This document shows positions 9,619-20,300 of a DNA stretch of 36,901 bases, in pieces (positions within the stretch are counted from its first letter, which is position 1; each line of letters opens with the position of its first letter). The position numbers were made by a program, and so were the translations under genes. The DNA comes from a virus. The stretch covers positions 1-36,901 of the IMG/VR virus record IMGVR_UViG_3300038701_002498; one strand, written 5' to 3'. Under the pieces are notes generated by a model. It was not told the DNA's origin. It searched no databases and saw only the letters and a program-made list of their open reading frames with translations.

Positions 9619-9840
9619 ATGACCAACGCCAAACCACGCCGCCAAGCCATTGACGCCTTTCTGGCCGCCAAGGCCGACATCGACCAGATGCTGGCCCGCC
9701 TCGAAGCCCTGAGCGCCGATCACTTTGACGTCCACCCGGACGAGGTTGACTGGGGCCACGTTGGCACCCTTGACGACTACCGGACCAAACTCCGCCAGAT
9801 TACGGACGCCGCCTTTAAAGAGGGTGAACACGCCCTCTGA
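9619..9840 (+). CDS. Small acidic hypothetical protein between int and attP
   Basis: A 73-residue protein with ATG at 9619 after AAAAGGA. It is helical and acidic (RQAIDAFLAAKADIDQMLAR, then DHFDVHPDEVDWGHVG). It is separated from int by 173 bases with no other gene. Possibly a recombination directionality factor by position, but no motif supports that. A weak GAGGG/CCCTC dyad overlaps its stop. Confidence 0.7.
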   Translation: MTNAKPRRQAIDAFLAAKADIDQMLARLEALSADHFDVHPDEVDWGHVGTLDDYRTKLRQITDAAFKEGEHAL

Positions 9841-9894
9841 TCCGTCGGGGAAGGGCTTTTAAACGCCTGAAAAACGAACAGAACAAAAACAGAA

Positions 9895-9915
9895 TGCTTA
9901 GACATTTGCTTAGAC
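9895..9915. promoter_or_regulatory. Candidate integrase arm-type sites left of attP
   Basis: TGCTTAGAC occurs at 9895-9903 and again at 9907-9915, with a 12-base period. A near match in inverted orientation (GCTTAGTC) lies right of the core at 10053-10046. Short repeats flanking a core are typical of integrase arm-binding sites. The stretch 9841-9962 has no gene. Confidence 0.45.
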
Positions 9916-9962
9916 GTGATTTCACACTAAAGTATAAATTCCGCTAAGTACTTGATTTTAAA

Positions 9963-10006
9963 TGGAGGCGAGTACCGGAATCGAACCGGTGTACACGGAT
10001 TTGCAA
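9963..10006 (-). other. attP: attP core: 3' end of tRNA-Cys(GCA)
   Basis: Read on the minus strand, this 44-bp stretch is the 3' half of a tRNA: anticodon loop TTGCAAA with anticodon GCA, the 3' anticodon stem strand TCCGT, a variable loop, the T arm (ACCGG-TTCGATT-CCGGT), acceptor strand ACTCGCC, discriminator T and CCA. A U73 discriminator is characteristic of tRNA-Cys. The sequence upstream of the loop no longer pairs as a tRNA, so homology starts at the anticodon loop. With integrase nearby and phage genes on both sides, this is attP rather than attL or attR. Integration would restore the host tRNA-Cys. Confidence 0.88.
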
Positions 10007-10308
10007 GAGATGGAATGCCACTGATTTCGCACGGCTTTTCGATTAGACTAAGCCGGAAATATCGCGGAACGTATCGTGAATGCCTAGAGGCTCTTTGGGG
10101 CGTTGTGGTGCCGCTAACTGGCCACATCACAAAACAGTTGCGTGCAAGGACACACCTAACTGAAGGGTCGAAATATCCACTTCCCTTGCCTTCCATTAAG
10201 TAACTGGCGATAAGAGCCGTAGGTAACTCAACGTCTAGTGGTGTTAGTCGCTTTTAAGGCCCGAAGACGCAAACTCGGACCAACACGAATTACGGAAGCA
10301 AGTTTAAT
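10007..10308. other. Non-coding attP right flank
   Basis: No convincing gene is seen. Short open frames crossing the core on both strands include tRNA sequence and lack ribosome-binding sites. It holds one possible arm-type site (10046-10053) and presumably the promoter of the cassette at 10309, though I see no clear -35/-10 pair. Base composition becomes AT-richer from here to about 12100. Confidence 0.5.
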
Positions 10309-11454
10309 ATGCCGACCCTAAAAATTGATCTTTCAACCAGAATTCTAAGCGATGACATGAAGGTGTTTTTGGTCCACCCCGGAGCCAGATATGCCTTCTA
10401 CAATACCGTGCTGGAGCATAGCGTTCTGCCTGCAGACGTTCCATTCTTGAGTCTTGAGAATGGCAAGGGTGTTCCGGAACCAGATGGAATTGGCCCAATG
10501 CTTGAACGCGCGCGCCAGATGCGAAAGTGGGCAAAAAGGCCGCTGGTGGAAGAGAACAAACCCCGCCCCCCTATGGATTTGGATTTCTACCGTTTTGGAC
10601 TTGAGACAGAAGCGGGAGCCCAAGGCGCTAGAACAAAACTTCGGAATTCTGCGCAAAAAATCCTTTGGTCAATACCGGAAAAGTCCCTCATTGTAGTGCC
10701 CTCTCAGCGCATCACCGAGCATGCGTTGATTGCAGAGGCTGGCCCACGTGAGGCTGACCGCCAAATAGTGGGTGGGACTGACCAGTACAATGGAATGAAG
10801 TTTCTGGCCCGACCACTTATCGGTGTCAAAAAAGTACCAATGCTTAAACTGCCCGGATCTGTGGTCGCCAGCGCCCGAAGTCCCAGCATTGTAGAAGAAG
10901 TAGACGGCCATGCCGAAGACCAATTGCTTCGCCTCTACTATGGTGATTACCAGCGTGACAGTGAGTATGTGGCAGGGGTGATCGCCAACACCGACGATTT
11001 TGATTCAATGGTATTGGGTCAAATGATCGACCTGCATGTTGCAATCCAACATTTCTTGGATACTGGATCTGTCCTACAACCGGGGCGCGCGCTGTATGAC
11101 AAGAACGTCGATAAGGCACCAAGACTTCATGCGACGATCAACAGCCCTGACGGTCGCGCATCACTTGAGTCCAGCGGAATAGCTACCTTTGCTGTCAAGC
11201 TACTGATGATTGTCGCAGCCAGCGGGGTTTCGTTGTCCATCGCAGGTGACCTCATCGCGAACGAGAGTGTCATTTTGGAAAACTCGGCACAGCAGATGGT
11301 TGATCCTGAGCTGATGATTGCCAGTAAGAACGCTCTTGTCGATTTTTTCGCAACATCTGGATATTCGAACTATAATGAATATCTTGAGGCACTACAGAAC
11401 GGCCTGGAACGAAACGCGACAACCCCAACAGGAACGGCTGTTATACAGCCTTGA
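10309..11454 (+). CDS. Cargo protein A of unknown function
   Basis: A 381-residue protein, not recognised. It begins MPTLKIDLSTRILSDDMKVF, with an early segment (VFLVHPGARYAFYNTVLEHS) that looks like a folded alpha/beta domain, a basic middle, and a hydrophobic stretch near residues 295-318 (FAVKLLMIVAASGVSLSIAG) that could be buried or span a membrane. No nuclease, ATPase, methylase or HTH motif is visible. It is the first of two genes next to attP, in sequence more AT-rich and with different codon use than its neighbours, which points to recent acquisition. The ribosome-binding site is weak (GGAAG about 11 bases upstream). Phage integrase-side cargo of this kind often affects the lysogen, for example defence or superinfection exclusion; that is inference. 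Confidence 0.8.
   Translation: MPTLKIDLSTRILSDDMKVFLVHPGARYAFYNTVLEHSVLPADVPFLSLENGKGVPEPDGIGPMLERARQMRKWAKRPLVEENKPRPPMDLDFYRFGLETEAGAQGARTKLRNSAQKILWSIPEKSLIVVPSQRITEHALIAEAGPREADRQIVGGTDQYNGMKFLARPLIGVKKVPMLKLPGSVVASARSPSIVEEVDGHAEDQLLRLYYGDYQRDSEYVAGVIANTDDFDSMVLGQMIDLHVAIQHFLDTGSVLQPGRALYDKNVDKAPRLHATINSPDGRASLESSGIATFAVKLLMIVAASGVSLSIAGDLIANESVILENSAQQMVDPELMIASKNALVDFFATSGYSNYNEYLEALQNGLERNATTPTGTAVIQP
11436..11450 (+). promoter_or_regulatory. Hairpin at the cargo A/B gene junction
   Basis: GGCTGT-TAT-ACAGCC forms a perfect 6-bp stem with a 3-base loop, ending immediately before the TTG/TGA overlap and ten bases before the ATG of gene B. It may gate translation of gene B by coupling, since gene B lacks its own clear ribosome-binding site. 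Confidence 0.5.
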
Positions 11455-11459
11455 TTTCA

Positions 11460-12032
11460 ATGACTGCTGACGAGAACAACACCACATGGCTACACACCAT
11501 GGTCTCTGTATGGGACAAGGTGCGGTCGAATCGTATTGTGCGCGCCATTATATGGTTGCGTTGGGTAATCACAGTAGCGGGCTTCCTCGCTACGATGCTT
11601 TGGTATTCCTATCTGGAGGGACAGGACATCAGCGGCGACCTGTCCGCTGACTACGCGGCCGTGCAAAAGGCGCAAAAAACACTGCTGGATGACAGTTTGC
11701 TCCTTCATCAACAATTATTGAATCCCAAGGCCAGCGTGGATCTGGATGCAGAACTGTCTGAACTTAGGGAAATGTCACGGAATACCATCGGATCGCTAGC
11801 TGGACTAAGAGCGCCAACCAATAGCCTTGCAGAAGCGCAAATAGAGTATCGCAAGGCCCTCGAGCAACTCATTGCGACAGCCAATCGTTTGGAGCGTGGC
11901 GAAATTCAAGGCATGGCTGGCACGCTTCAAAGTGGACTGCAGGGCGTTAGCAATGCGGGCGGGAAACTCAACCAGATGGTGCGAAACTTTCAGGGTGGCA
12001 TGTGGCCACAGTTAATGGGTTCAATTTTCTAA
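11460..12032 (+). CDS. Cargo protein B: membrane-anchored coiled-coil protein
   Basis: A 190-residue protein with one transmembrane segment at about residues 28-50 (AIIWLRWVITVAGFLATMLW), a short cytoplasmic N-terminus with basic residues before the segment, and a long helical, coiled-coil-like remainder (VQKAQKTLLDDSLLLHQQLL; SLAEAQIEYRKALEQLIATA). The heavy charge inside and the start of the helical part suggest a periplasmic domain. The in-frame TTG at 11451 overlaps gene A's stop; I prefer ATG 11460. It is translationally coupled to gene A, so the two proteins probably act together, with B placing the system at the inner membrane. The family is unknown. Confidence 0.75.
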   Translation: MTADENNTTWLHTMVSVWDKVRSNRIVRAIIWLRWVITVAGFLATMLWYSYLEGQDISGDLSADYAAVQKAQKTLLDDSLLLHQQLLNPKASVDLDAELSELREMSRNTIGSLAGLRAPTNSLAEAQIEYRKALEQLIATANRLERGEIQGMAGTLQSGLQGVSNAGGKLNQMVRNFQGGMWPQLMGSIF

Positions 12033-12100
12033 AACAAAAGTTTTGCGTCGTATACCACCTTTGAAATGTAGGCTATTCGGACAATCATGCTGAAATGACC

Positions 12101-12556
12101 TCATTCTGGTATCTGATGACCCCAAGTGACCACATCGAACAGCAGCTGCGGCGACAGGCGCTGCGGGTTCGGAAGACCAAGCGCTGCAGCGATGATTTCC
12201 GAACAGAACCACCGGTCTTCATCATGGCGACCGAACGCCAGAAGATGCGACAGCAGCAGCCCGGTGTAGTCATACCGGGAACCGATGCGCGACCGGATGA
12301 AGTCCGCCGGACCATCATCGTCGATGGCCAGCTGGACCAGATCCCAATGCGCAGGCTTCAGCACCATCATCTTCGACCGCACGCCGCCGTCGCGCCCGGA
12401 TGATGATAGGCATTCAAGCGGCTGACCAAAATCAGCAGCACCTGCGATTAATTCCACGTGGCTATAGCGACCACGGGTCGCGAAACGAATTCCCGCATCC
12501 TGAAGCCGATGCCACGGGTTGGTCGCGCGCCCCTTATAAAAGGCCAGAGTGATCAT
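12101..12556 (-). CDS. Permuted papain-like (YiiX/NlpC-P60 type) enzyme
   Basis: A 151-residue protein with the circularly permuted NlpC/P60 order: His33 in RYSHVELI first, and the nucleophile Cys118 in WFCSEIIAAALG later, as in YiiX/YaeF-type amidases. The start at ATG 12556 overlaps the stop of the Rz1-like gene (ATGA). Upstream codons are antisense or out-of-frame with the spanin genes. No signal peptide is seen. It is the last gene of the minus-strand late operon, beyond the spanins. A role in cell-envelope or lipid cleavage during lysis is possible but unproven. Confidence 0.75.
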   Translation of the reverse strand: MITLAFYKGRATNPWHRLQDAGIRFATRGRYSHVELIAGAADFGQPLECLSSSGRDGGVRSKMMVLKPAHWDLVQLAIDDDGPADFIRSRIGSRYDYTGLLLSHLLAFGRHDEDRWFCSEIIAAALGLPNPQRLSPQLLFDVVTWGHQIPE

Positions 12557-12867
12557 TGCGCGGCACCCCGGCGAAGCCCCGCCTGCAACTGGTCGTACCA
12601 CGCAGCGCAGCGCGTCGTGCGGGCGTTTTGCTGGAACAGCGCAGCGTCCGCCTTTTGCGCCGCGACATCCAGCCGGTCGCCGCCGCGCACGCCGGAAAAC
12701 GACAGACGGCGGCAATCGGCGGGCAGATCGGGCAACAGCCCCTCGGCCTGCACCTGCCCGACCGCCTCACCAGCCGCCTGCAGGCGCGCGACGTCAGTTT
12801 GCCCGCAACCGACCAAGAAGATCGGCATCGACAGCGCAATCAGGATTAACTTGGGTGTCACGTTCAT
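12553..12867 (-). CDS. Outer-membrane spanin (Rz1-like lipoprotein)
   Basis: A 104-residue protein with a lipoprotein signal: hydrophobic segment LILIALSMPIFLVGC and lipobox LVGC with Cys21. Its 5' end overlaps the 3' end of the Rz-like gene by 74 bases in another frame, the hallmark of Rz/Rz1 pairs. The mature part has several Cys and Pro residues. It would be anchored in the outer membrane and bind the inner-membrane spanin to fuse membranes at lysis. It is longer than lambda Rz1, as is common in other phages. Confidence 0.8.
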   Translation of the reverse strand: MNVTPKLILIALSMPIFLVGCGQTDVARLQAAGEAVGQVQAEGLLPDLPADCRRLSFSGVRGGDRLDVAAQKADAALFQQNARTTRCAAWYDQLQAGLRRGAAQ

Positions 12868-13156
12868 ACGCCTCCAGTTCGGCGGCAAAGCGCAAGGCTT
12901 CACCGGTTGCAGCCTGCACCTTTTTCTGCAAACTTTGGCTGGCCTCATACGCCGCAGCTATCCTGCGGCGCATCGCATCCAGTTCGGCCTGCACTGCGGT
13001 CAGCTCGAATTCGCGCACGAACCCCTCGCGGGCCGCGCTGACCGCTTGTCGCTTGTCATAGACGTGCCAGCCCCACAGGAGCGCGCAGCAAAACACCGCC
13101 AGACCGGCGCGGCTGGACAAAAGTCGCCAGCCATAGCGACAAACAATCGACATCAT
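12794..13156 (-). CDS. Inner-membrane spanin (Rz-like)
   Basis: A 120-residue protein with an N-terminal transmembrane segment (GLAVFCCALLWGWHVYD, about residues 18-34) and a long periplasmic coiled coil (VQAELDAMRRRIAAAYEASQ...). ATG at 13156 or 13153 with GGGAG upstream is used; frames further up have no site. The overlapping out-of-frame lipoprotein gene identifies it as the i-spanin of the pair. Confidence 0.8.
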   Translation of the reverse strand: MMSIVCRYGWRLLSSRAGLAVFCCALLWGWHVYDKRQAVSAAREGFVREFELTAVQAELDAMRRRIAAAYEASQSLQKKVQAATGEALRFAAELEAYERDTQVNPDCAVDADLLGRLRAN

Positions 13157-13191
13157 TGCTGCACACTCCCAGAACGTGAACGCGACACTGC

Positions 13192-14007
13192 CTATAACAG
13201 GCTGGTGCGGACTTTTCGGTTTGACAGGATCAATTCCTTGGCTTCGCACCCGTCGCCCTTTGCAACTGTGTAAGTCAGGGACACCTCTTCGATCTCAAAC
13301 CCCGAAAAAATCTGTCTAATTTCTGGAACGTCATTGATCGACATTACAAAAGCACCCTTGATTGAGCGCAAGGCAGTCGCCATGGCCTCAAAATCTGACC
13401 GCGCGAACATGTCTTTGCCATAGTCGGCCTCGCCGCCCCAATATGGCGGGTCGAGATAAAAAAGCGACTTTGGGCCATCGTATCGCTGCACGACATCTAG
13501 CCACGGCAAATTCTCGAAGACCACGCCATCCAACCGTGAATGCGCGGCATCCAGAATCGGCTCAAGCTTGGTCAGACTGAACCGAGGGGCGTGCGACGGT
13601 GACACTCCAAATGTGCCGCCCACCTTGCCGCCGAAAGCCAGCCGCTGAAGGAAAAGGAAGCGCGCGGCGCGCTCCAGGTCGGTCAACGTTGACGGGTCAC
13701 AACGGCGCAGGCGCTCAAATTCGGCACGCGACGATATTTGAAACCGCATCACCTCCATGAACTGCGGATAGTGGCGCTGCAAGATGCGGAAAAGGTTTGT
13801 GATTTCGCCGTTCAAGTCATTGGCGACCTCACACTTTGGGCGCCATGCGCGGCGCAAGAAAACGCCGCCCATACCCACGAATGGTCCAATATAGGTATCA
13901 TGCGGAATGCGGTCGATCCGCGCGATGATCTTGCTGTGCAGCGCCTTTTTACCGCCCAGCCACGGAGCCACAGGTGTAGCGGGCGACACTTTTGTCATTG
14001 TTGTCAT
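13192..14007 (-). CDS. D12-class DNA adenine methyltransferase (Dam-like)
   Basis: A 271-residue N6-adenine methylase. WLGGKK at 16-21 and PFVGMGG at 42-48 form the AdoMet-binding motifs, and DPPY at 186-189 is the catalytic motif; the order and length fit the D12 (Dam, GATC-type) class. The start at 14007 follows GGAAA; ATG 13998 is an alternative. No cognate restriction gene is present, so it is an orphan methylase, perhaps protecting phage DNA from host restriction or timing packaging and transcription. It sits unusually inside the lysis cassette, between lysozyme and spanins. Confidence 0.9.
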   Translation of the reverse strand: MTTMTKVSPATPVAPWLGGKKALHSKIIARIDRIPHDTYIGPFVGMGGVFLRRAWRPKCEVANDLNGEITNLFRILQRHYPQFMEVMRFQISSRAEFERLRRCDPSTLTDLERAARFLFLQRLAFGGKVGGTFGVSPSHAPRFSLTKLEPILDAAHSRLDGVVFENLPWLDVVQRYDGPKSLFYLDPPYWGGEADYGKDMFARSDFEAMATALRSIKGAFVMSINDVPEIRQIFSGFEIEEVSLTYTVAKGDGCEAKELILSNRKVRTSLL

Positions 14008-14026
14008 TTCGATTTCCAGAGATGCT

Positions 14027-14051
14027 GCCCGCACTCTCGCGAGAGTCGGGC
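14027..14051. promoter_or_regulatory. GC-rich dyad upstream of the methylase gene
   Basis: The 14-bp perfect palindrome ACTCTCGCGAGAGT is extended by GCCCG/CGGGC arms with one unpaired base. It lies 20-44 bases upstream of the methylase start on the minus strand. No T-run follows, so it may be an operator or an mRNA hairpin controlling the gene. Confidence 0.5.
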
Positions 14052-14106
14052 GATGTTTTCTGGAACGTGCATCGGCGCAGCTTTTTTCAAATCAGACTGC
14101 GTGGTT

Positions 14107-14143
14107 CGGGGTGTTGGTGCACCCCGGCCCCCGCCAAGGCGGG
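14107..14143 (-). terminator. Two tandem hairpins after the lysozyme gene
   Basis: CCCGCC-AA-GGCGGG (14130-14143) and CGGGGTG-6-CACCCCG (14107-14126) lie just past the lysozyme stop at 14170, reading on the minus strand. No clear U-tract follows, so they may attenuate or stabilise the transcript rather than end it. Confidence 0.35.
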
Positions 14144-14169
14144 TAAGACAGGTGTTTTGGGTCAGGATG

Positions 14170-14931
14170 TCACAGTCCGCGCAGGCACAGCGCGATTTCC
14201 TCGGCGCGTCGATTGACAAGGCCACGCACAACGCGACCACCGGCCTTGTTCCACCAACCGAGCGCGGTGCAGCCGCCCGCCACATCGCCCGCGTTCAAGC
14301 GGCGCGTGGCGGTGGACCGACCGGCACCGCGAATACCGACGTTATAGGCCAGCGACACATAGGCTGCGTCCCGATGTGGCGTCAGACGGGTGGCACTGGT
14401 TGCGTCGGTGAAGTAGCCATGCAGCCCAGCCCGAAAATCATTGGCGAGACGCTGCTCCAACTTCGTCCGGCACTCCGCATCGGTCGCCCGGTCCCCCAAG
14501 CGCACCCCGCGCGTTTCGCCGAAACAAAGCGTCGGCACCCCAACGATATCCAGATAGGCACAGTGCAGCGCCGGGTTGTCTCGACAGCGATGCTCGCCCT
14601 CCCACTTGGTCACCAATGGTACCAGAACCCGCATGGTGGCCCGCTCTGTGGTCTGGGCCATCGCTTGCGCGGCTACCAGCAAAGTGCCGATCACGACAAC
14701 GCCGAGAACAAGCCGACGCCGCAGCGCACTTTCGCGGGGCTGCAGGATCAACCGACCCAAAATGCCCAGCACGATGACCCAGATTTGCAGGGCCGACCAA
14801 ACGGCGGGATTTGTGTCGCGCTCTGCAATCAGGTAGATGACGTCGGGCGCGACAGTGATCGCCGCAAGGATATAGAAGGCCCAAGCGGTATAGGAACGCA
14901 GGACAATCGCCCGCCAGTCTTTATCAAGCAT
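14170..14931 (-). CDS. Membrane-anchored GH24 lysozyme (holin-like domain fused to endolysin)
   Basis: A 253-residue protein. The first 95 residues hold three hydrophobic segments (about 13-35, 42-63, 74-92); the last, ending AAQAMAQTTE, looks like a signal-anchor or cleavable signal. Residues 100-253 are a T4/P22-type lysozyme with catalytic Glu111, Asp128 and Thr134. Asp-Thr spacing is canonical, but Glu-Asp spacing is 17 residues instead of about nine, because of an insert with Cys116 and Cys124. It cuts peptidoglycan in the periplasm. The membrane part suggests Sec export with release at holin triggering, or a holin-like role of its own. It lies between a thiol-peptidase-like gene and the methylase. 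Confidence 0.85.
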   Translation of the reverse strand: MLDKDWRAIVLRSYTAWAFYILAAITVAPDVIYLIAERDTNPAVWSALQIWVIVLGILGRLILQPRESALRRRLVLGVVVIGTLLVAAQAMAQTTERATMRVLVPLVTKWEGEHRCRDNPALHCAYLDIVGVPTLCFGETRGVRLGDRATDAECRTKLEQRLANDFRAGLHGYFTDATSATRLTPHRDAAYVSLAYNVGIRGAGRSTATRRLNAGDVAGGCTALGWWNKAGGRVVRGLVNRRAEEIALCLRGL

Positions 14932-14950
14932 AGCAGCTCTCCATGAAACG

Positions 14951-14966
14951 GCCCGCGTGGGCGGGC
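14951..14966 (-). terminator. Hairpin between the peptidase-like and lysozyme genes
   Basis: GCCCGC-GTGG-GCGGGC is a 6-bp GC stem located between 14989 (stop of the upstream gene) and 14931 (start of lysozyme). On the minus strand it is followed by only three T residues, so it is a weak terminator or an attenuator. Confidence 0.3.
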
Positions 14967-14988
14967 GATGGGTTTTAGGGTAAAGTCG

Positions 14989-15384
14989 TCAGATGCGCCG
15001 CAGGATTGGCCGCAACAGGAAATTCAGCGCGACCAGTGGGAAAAGGTAGGGAAAGCGCAGCCGATAGCCCTTAGCCTTCAGGACGCCGCGCGACACCAGC
15101 TGTCGCTGGATGTTATCGGTCCAGCCGCGTCCACGCCGCCAAAGAACCGCATGGCCCGCGCCACTTGGCGACAGGCAATGCCAAAGCAGGTATTTGAACG
15201 TGATCAGCGCCCACCAGAAGCGCAGCATCGACCGGCCTTCATAGAGCCAAATCAACGTCAGCGAATAGTCTTCGCAGTCGCCCGCCACAGGACCATCGCC
15301 ACCCATGATGCGCCAGCTTTCGCCTTTGTCCGCACGATAGGTGAAGCGCCCATTCAGAGACGCCTGAACAGCATCAGCAGCCAT
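14989..15384 (-). CDS. Transglutaminase-like cysteine peptidase homologue (BTLCP type)
   Basis: A 131-residue protein with the BTLCP-type papain-fold core: Cys37 in GDCEDYSLTL, His78 in GHAVLW and an Asp90/Asn91 position in GWTDN. Compared with bacterial members it lacks a signal peptide. It has hydrophobic stretches in the middle and at the C-terminus (YLFPLVALNFLLRPI), which may attach it to the membrane. Similar small genes occur near lysis genes in phages, but their role is not established. ATG at 15384 follows AAAAGGAGG. It is 20 bases after the holin gene stop. Confidence 0.8.
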   Translation of the reverse strand: MAADAVQASLNGRFTYRADKGESWRIMGGDGPVAGDCEDYSLTLIWLYEGRSMLRFWWALITFKYLLWHCLSPSGAGHAVLWRRGRGWTDNIQRQLVSRGVLKAKGYRLRFPYLFPLVALNFLLRPILRRI

Positions 15385-15404
15385 TGCCGCCTCCTTTTAT
15401 ATTT

Positions 15405-15722
15405 TTAGCTTTTTCGGGCTATCCAGCCCTCGAATATAGCGGCAGCGCCGCGAGGCCCGAGGTAGGAAAGAACTGCGATAATTCCGACTTTGACTGTGTT
15501 TTCAAAGCCCATGTAATCCCCAAGGGAATCACCAATCAGCGCCATGCCTACGGCCAACGGAACCTCCCAAATCAAATCCACTGAAAAGAGGTTTCGCCGC
15601 TTTGCGCGAACCTCTCCAGCATGGAACATGGCCCTGCCGATAAAAGCTGAAACTAGTGCAGTTGCGGCCCCGCCTATTGCATTGCTGATTGCCTCAATAA
15701 GGCCCGTTTCCGGATCAATCAT
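15405..15722 (-). CDS. LydA-like phage holin
   Basis: A 105-residue protein beginning MIDPETGLIEAIS with two to three hydrophobic segments (AIGGAATALVSAFIGRAMFH; VPLAVGMALIGDSLG; VGIIAVLSYLGPRGAAAIF). Length and layout match LydA-type holins. It starts the lysis cassette directly after tail gene D, 16 bases away, and would set lysis timing by permeabilising the inner membrane. Confidence 0.75.
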   Translation of the reverse strand: MIDPETGLIEAISNAIGGAATALVSAFIGRAMFHAGEVRAKRRNLFSVDLIWEVPLAVGMALIGDSLGDYMGFENTVKVGIIAVLSYLGPRGAAAIFEGWIARKS

Positions 15723-15738
15723 ACTGTCCCCTTGACTG

Positions 15739-16731
15739 TTATTCGGCCTTTAATTTGCCCGTGAAGGCGGTGCGCAGACCGCCGGATTTCGTGAAGGTGT
15801 GCGTCACCCGGTCAAGGATGAATTCACGGCCATCGACCAGCGGGCGTACCCCCGAATAGATGACAGGCTGACCCGCCATCAGCGCCGGGCGACCGACGAT
15901 CGAACACCCGGTCGCAATCAGGCCCCGCATCATTTCGCGGGCAGCGGCCTTGGCGGCAGCGGTTGCCTCTTCTTTTGAGCTGTACGGGTCGCGCAAGACG
16001 TGTTCACCGCTTGCTTCTTGGTCGGCATCCACGATGACTTCTTGCCGCTTCGCACCCTTGCGGTCCTGCCAGTAGGCTTTGACAGTTGCGAACCGGTCCA
16101 CATCGGCCTCGGAAACCTGACATGATCCTTCGATGATGGACGGCACAAGCACCAGCGATGGCGGAATGGCCGCACCGTCTGCCGTTTTTCCCGTGCCGCG
16201 CTCCAACCAAAGAAGCGTGCCGTTCTTGATGGTGAACAGCGCCCCATGGCGCTGCGCCAGACGTTCCAGAAAGTTCAGGTCGGATTCGTCCTGCTGCCCG
16301 ATCCATTCATAGACGTGACCCGACACCGAACCGGAAATCTTGGACTGCAGGCCATAATCGCTGGCCTTTTCTTCCACGATGTCTTTCACCGACGCATCGT
16401 CCCAATGCTTGGTCTTGTTCGCCTTCATTTCTGACCGAAGGTCAGCCGAATGCCCCCTGACCGTGATGGTGTAGGGCAGGCACGCGAATTCCACCCGGTC
16501 GATGATATAGGCCCCGACAAACCCGCCGCTGCTGCCATTCAGGATGGTGACAGTGACAACCGCCCCACGCCGGGGCGACTGGAAATGCGGTGCCGCATCA
16601 TTGAAAACCAGATCCAGCGTGTCAGACCGGATGCCTTCGCGGTCGGTGATGGTCAGGCTGACAAGCCGATCAAAGAACGCCCCCGACACGGGCACACCAT
16701 CGACAGTCACCAGAATGCGCGGATGCGTCAT
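15739..16731 (-). CDS. D: Tail protein D (baseplate hub, P2 gpD-like)
   Basis: A 330-residue protein of the late-control-D family. The N-terminal barrel (ILVTVDGVPVSGAFFDRLVS, SLTITDREGIRSDTLDLVF) and the central YEWIGQQDESDLNFLERLA, GALFTIKNGTLLW are typical. gpD forms the hub that connects the tail tube to the spike and is also an injection-machine part. ATG at 16731 overlaps gpX's stop (TGATG), so the longer upstream start is rejected. It is the last of the tail genes T-U-X-D, in the same order as P2. Confidence 0.92.
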   Translation of the reverse strand: MTHPRILVTVDGVPVSGAFFDRLVSLTITDREGIRSDTLDLVFNDAAPHFQSPRRGAVVTVTILNGSSGGFVGAYIIDRVEFACLPYTITVRGHSADLRSEMKANKTKHWDDASVKDIVEEKASDYGLQSKISGSVSGHVYEWIGQQDESDLNFLERLAQRHGALFTIKNGTLLWLERGTGKTADGAAIPPSLVLVPSIIEGSCQVSEADVDRFATVKAYWQDRKGAKRQEVIVDADQEASGEHVLRDPYSSKEEATAAAKAAAREMMRGLIATGCSIVGRPALMAGQPVIYSGVRPLVDGREFILDRVTHTFTKSGGLRTAFTGKLKAE

Positions 16732-16943
16732 CAGTCCCACAACCTCAATGGCTGGCCAGCTTTATCCTGCACCACCATGTCGGGCAGGGTGATTTCAGTG
16801 CCAACCGGCAACCGGTGGGCCACGTTCTTGATATGGGGGTTCGCCTCGAGTACCCGCTCAACCGCACCCGCCTGTGCCCCATATTCGCGCAGACAAATCA
16901 GGTCCAACGCATCCCCGGCGGCGGTCACGTAAACACTGGCCAT
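16731..16943 (-). CDS. X: Tail protein X (LysM-like)
   Basis: A 70-residue protein matching P2 gpX: a LysM-like fold with VYVTAAGDALDLICLREYGA and LPVGTEITLPD. It is thought to join tail hub and tube. Overlaps with both U (one base) and D (TGATG) indicate strict co-translation. Confidence 0.9.
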   Translation of the reverse strand: MASVYVTAAGDALDLICLREYGAQAGAVERVLEANPHIKNVAHRLPVGTEITLPDMVVQDKAGQPLRLWD

Positions 16944-17365
16944 CAGAAAATCCCCAGCAGTGACAACAGGCTGAACCCGGCCCCGATGCGCTTCACTTCG
17001 ATGGTGAAAGCATTGCGGCCCGGCGTGCCGTAGCGGTCATGAAACGCGCGGTCTTCATCGACCTTCTGGATGGCGTGACTGCCAAAGACCTTGCCACCCA
17101 AGGACACCAGCATCAGCGGCACCCCGGATTTCGCGGCCAGCCGCACGCCTTCGAATGTGCCAGCGCCACCGAATTCTTGCGGGAACAGCACGCCATTGAT
17201 GGTCACCACTTCGGTGCGCGGGCCGGTCCACTGCAGGGCGTTCAGCCGTCCCGCAGTTTCGATTTCGGCCCACGTGGTGTCCAGCTTACGCCCGACTCCG
17301 GTGTAGCCGAAGCCGTGGGCACGAAACATGAATGGCCCCAAGGCCATGGTCACAGGTCCAGCCAT
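16943..17365 (-). CDS. U: Tail protein U (P2 gpU-like)
   Basis: A 140-residue protein with the typical gpU start (MALGPFMFRAHGFGYTGVGR, the WAEIETAGR stretch) and LQWTGPRTEVVTINGVLFP. It is a small tail completion or hub protein of myoviruses. It is located directly after the tape measure gene, as in P2. Confidence 0.92.
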   Translation of the reverse strand: MAGPVTMALGPFMFRAHGFGYTGVGRKLDTTWAEIETAGRLNALQWTGPRTEVVTINGVLFPQEFGGAGTFEGVRLAAKSGVPLMLVSLGGKVFGSHAIQKVDEDRAFHDRYGTPGRNAFTIEVKRIGAGFSLLSLLGIF

Positions 17366-17374
17366 GTCACCCCC

Positions 17375-20300
17375 TTAGTCGGAAAAGCTGGCCGACATCG
17401 TGGCCGCGACACGCTGCCCGATACGGTCAGACACAAGGTCTGCAATCGCGTCAGGGTCGGATACGCCAGACGGCACATGCACAGTGAAGTTTTCAATCTG
17501 CACCGTCACAGCCCCCAAACCGGGCTTTGCAGCCTGCGCAGGCTGCGCTGCGACCGGTGCCGCAAGTGCCGAACCGGTCAGCATCGCAAGGCTGGCAGCG
17601 CGAAGCCCCTGCGCCCCACGATGCAGCCGCGCCAGTTCTGGATTGCGACCGACAGCACGCGGGGCAATACTAGGCAAATGCGACCGGAAAGCCGCCTGCG
17701 CCTGACCCACGTTCAGGACGCCGCCCGATTGGCTTGGTACGAACCACTCCGAACGCGGGGTGTTTTCGTTCACCAGATAGGGCAGACCCATCCGGACTGG
17801 CCCACCACCGGCGCGGGCACCGGCGGGCTTGGGTGTGGGCGCGCCACCAGCACCCGACGAAGGCAAAGCGCGAATGCCTGCCGCAAGCTGCTGCACTTTT
17901 TCCATCGCACGGTCGATGGACTCGGTGTTGATTTCCGGGGCCACTTCAGTTCCATTCAGAACCTGCAGCGCCTCGGTTAGCTGCGCAGACTCCGTTTCAG
18001 TGCTTTTCAACCGATCTTCAGCACGCCGCAGCCCAGCTTTCACGGCATCCAGCTCACCTTGCGCCTGCATGCGAAGCGGGTTGGTGATGCCACTGCCGAA
18101 TTTTGGGGTGGCATCTAGCGCCGCCTGCGCGGCCTCGACCTCCGCCCGATACGCAGCCACCTCTTCGCGCAAGTGCGCGATACGATCAGGGGTCGGCAGA
18201 CTGTCTTCACCGGCATATTGATAGACAGTATTAGCCGCAGCCCTTACGCCGGGGTCATTCGGCAGCAGCGCCGGTTCGACAGGCGGCGGCTTTCCATGCA
18301 CCCACTCAAACGTGCGCTCATAGCCTTCAATCAGATGGCTAATTCCGGGCGCGTTGCGGAAAAACTGGTCCATCGACCGAACATTGTTTTCCTGAAACGC
18401 CGCAAGGTGTTCTGGGTTTTCCGGAATATTGCGCATCGCAAGATAAGTCATCGCCCCGGCGGAAAACGCGCCCCACCGAATGCGCCTCATAGCCCGATTG
18501 TGTCGCCTCTCGATAGCGTCGATGTGACCAACGGCACCACGTCTGAAGTCGGCAAAATCCGCAAGATGGCCCGCTAGACTAGGGCGGCCCAACCTCAATC
18601 GGCGACGATTCAGGCGACCTATTTCGGAACCCATACCCGTCAGATCGCCCGCAGCAAAGGCCGCACGTGCCCCAAACCCGACCAGCCCAAAGCGTAGCAC
18701 CGCTAGTGTCCCGATCAGGCCAGCGGCGGCTGTCAGCAACGCACCACCCGTCACTGCCATCGCACCAAGGGCCGTGGCACCAAGGAACAGCGTCTTGACC
18801 AGCTTGGGGTTTTCTTTCTTCCAGACAATCATCCGCTCTACGATGGCGTCTGTTTTTTGAAAAAGGTCGGTCAGCGATTCCAGAACCTCCGGTGGAAGCG
18901 AAAACAGTTTACCGACAGATTCCCCAAGTTGCGCCTTGGATTCGTTGTAAGTGTTAATCGCATTTTCGAAATCGGCATCCACCACACCGTCAGCAGACAA
19001 TGCGGCCTCTTTGATGCGCCGGTATTCTTCCAAGTTCGGAATCATGGCCCGCAGGAAGTCCAACACCTGCTTGTCACCGAACAGTTCACCCATTTTCAGC
19101 GCATCGCCGCCTGTCAGGTCATCAATGACCCCAAGCATGTGTTCGAACGGGGACACGCCGTTTTCAGCCGCCTTGCGAAGTTCATCTTCGATACTCACGC
19201 CCATCTTGGCAAAGCGTCTGACTGTCTCTGGCGACGTCAGCTTGCCCAAGAAATTGGACAAATTGGTGGCGGCTTGATCTTCAGAACCAGCCGATTTCAT
19301 TGACACCTGAAGGGCAGCGGTCAACTGCGTCAGCGAATCCACGCCCTCCATTCCAAGTGCCCGCGCTCCGGCAGTGATTTCCGGCAGTTTTCGGGCCATA
19401 GCATCTAGCTCGAAGCCACCTTCCTTGCCGCCCTTGGCCAGCACATCAAACCCCTTGCGCAGCTCGCCGGGCGCAATTTTGAGGTTGTCATACAACGCAA
19501 AGCCCGACGCGCCCATTTCATCCAGCGGCGTCTTGGTGGCCTTCGCAGCCCGACCCACCGCAGGAAACGCTGCAAGCGCCTCCTCAAAGTCCATACCTTT
19601 GCCGACCAGCACACCAAGGCCACTCAGCATTTCCGAGACGCTACTCTTGGTAACATCCCGCAGCCCGTCCAGTTCTTCACGCAACTGGACCAGGCGCGTG
19701 TCATCAATGCCGGTCAGGTTTTGGAAGTCGGCAAATTGCTCTTCCAGATCGCCAGACCGATTCGCGACTTGTGACAGCGGCGTCAGGATGCGCTGCCCCG
19801 TCGCGGTCGCCGCGCCACCCACAAACGACAGGTTCCCTGCCGTGGCGAGCGACTGATCCATGCGCCTGCGCCCATCCGCGATCCGGGTCTGCATCGTTTC
19901 TAGGCGGCGCATACGATCCATCTGGCGGCGGAAAGCAGGCGCGGCGTTGTCCAGCGCGGTCGCCAGCCTGTTCTGCTCGGCCTTCAGGTTCGATGTATCG
20001 ACTCCGGCCTCTTTAAGGTCGGTGCGCAATGCCCCCAGCTTGCGCCGGTGCCGCTCATGAAGAGAGTGCATTTTGTTGACGTTACGCTTGGCCGCCTCGA
20101 ACTCGCGGCGCATCGAATCGGTGATCTGCCCGCCTGACGATAGTTTTTTCTTGGCGCGTCGCAAACGTTCCTGAGCTTGCACCAGCGCGTCTGCGTACTG
20201 ATTTGCCTTTGCTTTCGCCGTCCTGAAATCTTCTATCAGCTTCAGGGGGCCGCGCATGTCCTGCAGGCGGCTCATTTCGGTGCGCACGCCATCGGCAAAG

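Follow-up and report, generated by a model that had tools for sequence, protein, structure and literature searches.

A candidate anti-phage gene pair on mobile DNA of Alphaproteobacteria, with an Mrr-type N-terminal domain in one of its proteins

Abstract

The N-terminal half of protein A, the first product of a two-gene cassette located beside attP in a viral genome, is homologous, judging from profile-profile alignment, to the N-terminal domain of COG4127/Mrr-type restriction endonucleases; this is a new finding. We see about even prospects that gene A and its small neighbour, gene B, constitute an undescribed two-gene system in which an Mrr-type sensor domain is taken off its nuclease and placed on a membrane effector that has a membrane protein of its own as partner; the system would be directed against phages, and prophages, satellite-like elements and plasmids would have spread it among Alphaproteobacteria. 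The observations behind this proposal are the conserved pair, its mobile carriers, the variable slot, the homologous N-terminal domain, the missing nuclease domain and the conserved hydrophobic helices.

Results

Genes A and B

The window, i.e., the whole stretch of DNA that was analysed, is the virus record IMGVR_UViG_3300038701_002498 of 36,901 bases. The genes considered here and their immediate surroundings are as follows.

10309 to 11454, plus strand: gene A, an open reading frame of 381 aa
11436 to 11450: hairpin with a 6-bp stem and a 3-nt loop at the A/B junction
11451 (TTG) or 11460 (ATG) to 12032, plus strand: gene B, an open reading frame; the layout is the same in relatives
12101 to 12715, minus strand: YiiX-like gene, the last of the late operon; beyond it lie the spanin, methylase, endolysin and tail gene D

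No other long plus-strand gene lies between attP and the late operon, which is convergent with A and B, and the coordinates given for the two in the initial annotation are correct. The product of B has 193 aa if translated from the TTG, which overlaps the stop codon of A as TTGA, and 190 aa if translated from the ATG. Both genes are truly coding, considering their homology to other sequences and the purifying selection in close relatives (dN/dS of 0.03 for A and 0.10 for B between L059 and L060).

The cassette was described as AT-richer than the rest, and it is: the GC content is 50.7% for positions 10250-12060 versus 60.1% in the rest of the window, and only 2% of windows of the same size are equally AT-rich, though the low-GC stretch (9750-12250) takes in the att region too. 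The GC3 values of the two genes (0.51 and 0.565) lie below those of most phage genes sampled (about 0.62-0.75); the composition differs from that of most of the genome. Elsewhere in the window, a 245-aa minus-strand open reading frame at the repressor position (1333-2070) has a GC3 of 0.516 and lacks a PHROG match.

The hairpin reported at the junction exists; however, it is at chance level: the window has 14 perfect hairpins with such a stem and loop, and the A/B junctions of ten relatives show no apparent counterpart. A functional role for it was therefore dropped.

The cargo slot beside attP

The site of the cassette was compared with close phage relatives, which were found via tail gene D (up to 95% identical) and include roseobacter-group genomes. 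The relevant features of the window are as follows.

9963 to 10006, minus strand: attP core, a copy of the 3' half of tRNA-Cys(GCA), 44 bp at 95% identity
10007 to 10142: att-arm sequence common to related prophages
10109 to 10142, minus strand: second, diverged copy of the YiiX 3' end, flanking the cassette towards attP
12117 to 12150, minus strand: matching 3'-terminal stretch of the intact YiiX-like gene, at the other insertion edge

The tRNA match confirms the attP proposed earlier. L006, L012 and L013 share the att arm (about 9959-10142) at 81-86% identity; their slot is empty, and the arm is directly adjacent to the YiiX-like gene at its 3' end. Window positions 10142-10109 and 12150-12117 both align to the same segment of L006 (12001-12034), so that a diverged copy of the YiiX 3' end lies on each side of the cassette. 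In L005 and L031 the YiiX-like gene is shortened, and two large convergent genes lie between it and the att arm (11969-15722 in L005, about 13.9-17.7 kb in L031); by reading of the sequence only, they encode a 611-aa FkbM-like and a 660-aa glycosyltransferase-like protein. Considering the relatives with an empty slot or other cargo, together with the flanking YiiX copies, the alignments identify the cassette as an insertion into a variable cargo slot, in agreement with the initial annotation. The pair is absent from the close phage relatives; it shows presence or absence at one site, its own orientation and a different composition, as is usual for prophage cargo (morons).

The cargo of L005 and L031 suggests surface modification by lysogens, and the location alone is no proof of defence, since the slot of a relative carries genes of this type. 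It could be proposed from these FkbM- and glycosyltransferase-like genes that A-B likewise alters the host envelope or physiology and has no role against phages; we find this improbable, given the restriction-type N-terminal domain of A and the defence genes near six of the loci (both described below).

Two further observations concern neighbouring sites. Just past the att core of L006 there is a three-gene set (12663-14985) encoding proteins of 509 aa, 108 aa (STAS-like by eye) and 158 aa (with a hydrophobic helix). It was set aside as cargo of the A-B slot in view of its position past the core, probably outside the prophage, and is probably chromosomal or part of a second element; the first two genes have no Pfam match, and the first and third have no PADLOC match. 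In L014, another phage relative, a DUF6414-like gene (E 0.0018; 11508-12233) follows the lysis genes.

Relatives and their carriers

Searches of the window proteins A and B against Pfam, PHROGs, PADLOC and NCBIfam gave nothing significant; the best values with PADLOC-DB 2.0 were 0.0059 (PtuB, for window B) and 0.0086-0.02 (for relatives), all of them partial and inconsistent. With tblastn, A matched a single plasmid, p5 of Thioclava sp. GXIMD4216 (E 8e-16, 23% identity), which led on to plasmid pF of Methylobacterium sp. FF17. HMM searches by taxon found relatives of A as follows: family of G001, 5 of 395 genomes; order of G012, 2 of 397; class, 2 of 385; phylum, 1 of 398 (already counted); one genus, 3 of 100. 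A pattern scan with the L042 protein added four prophage-like IMG/VR contigs; no relatives came from scans that started from window A, from window B, from the Thioclava protein or from small alignments, and none were found among 50,697 phage records. Identity of the relatives to window A is 17-25%.

The pair recurs elsewhere. It is carried by plasmids (L001, which is Thioclava p5, and L003), prophages or prophage-like sequences (L042, L059-L062 and L068) and tRNA-linked integrative elements: in L058 it lies near tRNA-Cys and an integrase remnant, and in L069 beside an integrase and tRNA-Leu. L057 is satellite-like, with integrase, helicase, Rha-like and terminase-small-like genes (identities by reading of the sequence). 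The pair is found only on mobile DNA, in alphaproteobacteria; homologues residing on plasmids and integrative elements are not what would be seen for a conserved set of phage structural or lysis genes. L042 is a divergent Rhizobiales prophage (its D is 39% identical) in which B-A runs convergent to the late operon and is followed by tRNA-Arg; this site in a different phage is equivalent to that of the window. At the end of the same prophage, a 421-aa open reading frame (L042 11454-12716) runs divergent from A; it starts with MKVFWSWQSDTPGKTGRHF, is TIR-like by eye only and has no Pfam or PADLOC match.

A and B as a conserved pair

The two genes were annotated as coupled; a B-like gene lies 3' of A on the same strand in all loci with enough sequence (15/15). 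A 4-nt ATGA overlap joins A and B in L001, L044, L045 and L052; in L045, B begins and is broken near the contig end. The B sequences are highly divergent and have the N-terminal hydrophobic helix and the length in common. The distance matrices of A and B are strongly correlated over 11 loci (r = 0.946, Mantel p = 0.0005), which in sequence terms is co-inheritance and no proof of physical contact.

An overlapping two-gene operon, found in several loci, also brings to mind a toxin-antitoxin or maintenance function, with one protein a membrane toxin and the other restraining it, to the benefit of the plasmid or prophage. It also counts for this function that one carrier is a 6.3-kb plasmid, that a Fic gene adjoins one A-B locus, and that L001 has a polymorphic toxin/immunity pair alongside. 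However, A is large for a component of such a system and its N-terminal domain is restriction-like; the purifying selection on both genes counts neither way. We regard this explanation as rather improbable.

The N-terminal domain of A

Protein A of the window can be divided as follows.

Residues ~18-199: COG4127/Mrr-type N-terminal domain, by profile-profile comparison
Residues ~200-285: mostly helical region; secondary structure from low-confidence models only
Residues ~291-309: hydrophobic helix, by hydrophobicity
Residues ~310-381: tail

A direct HMM search for the N-terminal domain in 190 genomes gave no convincing match outside the family. The L069 protein looked similar to COG4127/Mrr-type N-terminal domains, and this was put to the test; the link emerged only once Mrr proteins were tested directly. 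Loci with Mrr_cat (PF04471) were fetched and their 259 ORFs were searched with the HMM of the A N-terminal half; the top two matches were Mrr proteins with the N-terminal domain (E 5.8e-5 and 0.0011). Nine more such domains came from plasmids, in proteins annotated as restriction endonuclease, AAA ATPase or DUF3578 protein, and the comparison set consisted of 11 COG4127-type domains.

Aligned to this set with hhalign, the A profile scored 75.9 at 97.3% probability over 141 columns. Leaving out L069 gave 96.3%, and so did full-length A, of which window residues 18-199 were aligned; the scores at these probabilities of 96-97% ranged over 64-76. When both sides were realigned a second way, the probability was 95.9%. 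The controls were far lower: at most 3.0% (score 21.9) for 100 column-shuffled profiles, at most 2.7% (score 20.5) for 24 unrelated natural families, 0.1% for the reversed profile, 0.5% for the B family and 0.1% for the C-terminal half of A. Three separate subgroups of A gave 76%, 88% and 95%. Window A together with its nearest relative, L047, gave 3%, a two-sequence profile being too thin to judge; the assignment reaches these two proteins through the family. Solved structures gave no match to the COG4127-type domain.

The initial annotation saw no recognisable motif in A, and this must be revised in view of the profile alignment. Two other matches were rejected: ribosomal eL18 with the A profile (E 0.0022) is a short local match to "GD-IVVP", and RecA with the L069 protein (E 6e-6) arose from fused RecA repeats, no stretch passing by itself. 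Mrr_cat was found neither in 12 A proteins at E<=10, where only four unrelated weak families appeared, nor in window A; no AAA match was found in the 12 A proteins or three B proteins scanned against Pfam.

Hydrophobic helices and topology

A hydrophobic segment recurs at about residues 290-310 in the A proteins examined (mean Kyte-Doolittle 1.2-2.4). It is moderate in several members, and within-protein shuffles are often as hydrophobic. Lysines and arginines are usually more numerous before the segment than after it; two cysteines of the tail occur together in 11 proteins, are both missing in 3, and never occur singly. The charge bias and the paired cysteines would fit a cytoplasmic N-terminal half and a periplasmic, disulfide-bonded tail. 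The description of A as soluble is probably wrong, considering the helix at 291-309. Around residues 290-330 an A-x-A-like motif often comes after the helix, much as in signal peptides, and the tail might be cleaved in the periplasm. AlphaFold models of A from 6-row alignments were unusable (pLDDT 33 and 37).

In B, the single membrane segment of the initial annotation is confirmed as a hydrophobic helix near the N-terminus (residues 29-47, counted from the ATG); the remainder is helical. Matches of B relatives to RSS_P20, Rsd and ATG17 were taken as noise common to helical proteins.

A hydrophobic helix in both proteins, and domains that may face the periplasm, could also serve superinfection exclusion, with an A-B complex in the inner membrane blocking the DNA entry of related phages and the cell left alive. 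P22 SieA is a precedent for inner-membrane exclusion (PMC10883804), and prophages do carry A-B in the position of lysogenic cargo. Nevertheless, about half of A is a domain otherwise seen on cytoplasmic restriction proteins and not obviously needed to block entry, and the pair is also found on plasmids that are not phages; we consider exclusion unlikely.

Defence genes near the pair

About 20 neighbouring genes were hand-picked for matching to PADLOC. L001 has a CBASS cyclase (4e-206) and a SAVED-HNH effector (6e-134), and L052 has RmrT (7e-41) and RmrA (3.5e-148). PtuA-like ATPases were found in L042 (1e-83) and L054 (2e-17), a type I HsdR lies 0.25 kb from B in L057 (6e-38), and a Fic candidate (PDC-S04, 5e-17) is directly upstream of A in L056. 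Defence genes are thus present around six A-B loci; with hand-picked neighbours and no background control, the link to defence is suggestive only. Between the CBASS genes and A-B of L001, positions 12696-18921 hold an FtsH-like AAA/M41 protein and a Tox-REase-5/Imm52 pair.

Discussion

We believe that anti-phage defence, taking the membrane-effector and entry-exclusion forms together, is probably the role of A-B, and it is the likeliest of those considered. As to the form, we lean slightly towards a mobile two-gene anti-phage module in which A senses infection and the membrane is then disrupted together with B, the mechanism being our inference. A would consist of a cytoplasmic sensor domain, the helical region, a single membrane-spanning helix close to the C-terminus and a short periplasmic tail, in this order; B would be its small partner, which has a membrane helix at the N-terminus and a helical domain facing the periplasm. 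The cytoplasmic domain of A would recognise some feature of the incoming phage DNA or of the infection. A, presumably in complex with B, would then disturb the inner membrane by a pore or depolarisation, and phage growth would be stopped or the infected cell killed.

If confirmed, the pair would be a case of a membrane effector under the control of a restriction-type sensor, would bring in a system missed by four libraries (Pfam, PHROGs, PADLOC and NCBIfam), and would provide a simple two-gene test bed for what the N-terminal domain recognises.

Comparison with known systems

RexAB of phage lambda is an exclusion system encoded by two prophage genes, one for a cytoplasmic sensor and one for its membrane partner, RexB, a multi-pass membrane protein. 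A-B would resemble it in its working only; B, unlike RexB, has a single hydrophobic helix.

Csx28, an accessory membrane pore of type VI-B CRISPR, is similar to B in size and layout. The match of the N-terminal region of B to it is non-significant (NCBIfam E 0.16, 12 of the 50 bits of the cut-off; PDB 8gi1, E 0.2), other helical proteins outscore it in the PDB search of B, and no Cas13b-like protein was annotated or noticed near A-B. The likeness is a lead only.

P2-like prophages have defence hotspots with the tin/old and fun loci and the PD systems (Vassallo et al. 2022, PMC9519451). A-B likewise occupies a variable cargo position in a temperate phage; in contrast to these hotspots, its site is where the late operon ends, next to attP, in alphaproteobacterial phages, and the genes are other ones.

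The closest comparison is with the restriction proteins. COG4127/Mrr-type endonucleases combine the N-terminal domain, to which residues ~18-199 of A are homologous by profile alignment, with Mrr_cat; A, in contrast, lacks Mrr_cat, has a helical C-terminal half with a hydrophobic helix and a tail, and is paired with the membrane protein B. McrB-like AAA and DUF3578 proteins (a Rhodococcus AAA ATPase, a Microvirga DUF3578 protein) have the same domain with another output part, and A differs from the former in having no AAA match. According to Kosinski et al. (2005, PMC1189080), some COG4127 members have the N-terminal domain only or an unrelated C-terminal domain; its function was undetermined at that time, and nuclease-less members were regarded as useful for finding it. 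Protein A would be such a nuclease-less carrier of the Mrr-type domain, with a different, membrane-bound output.
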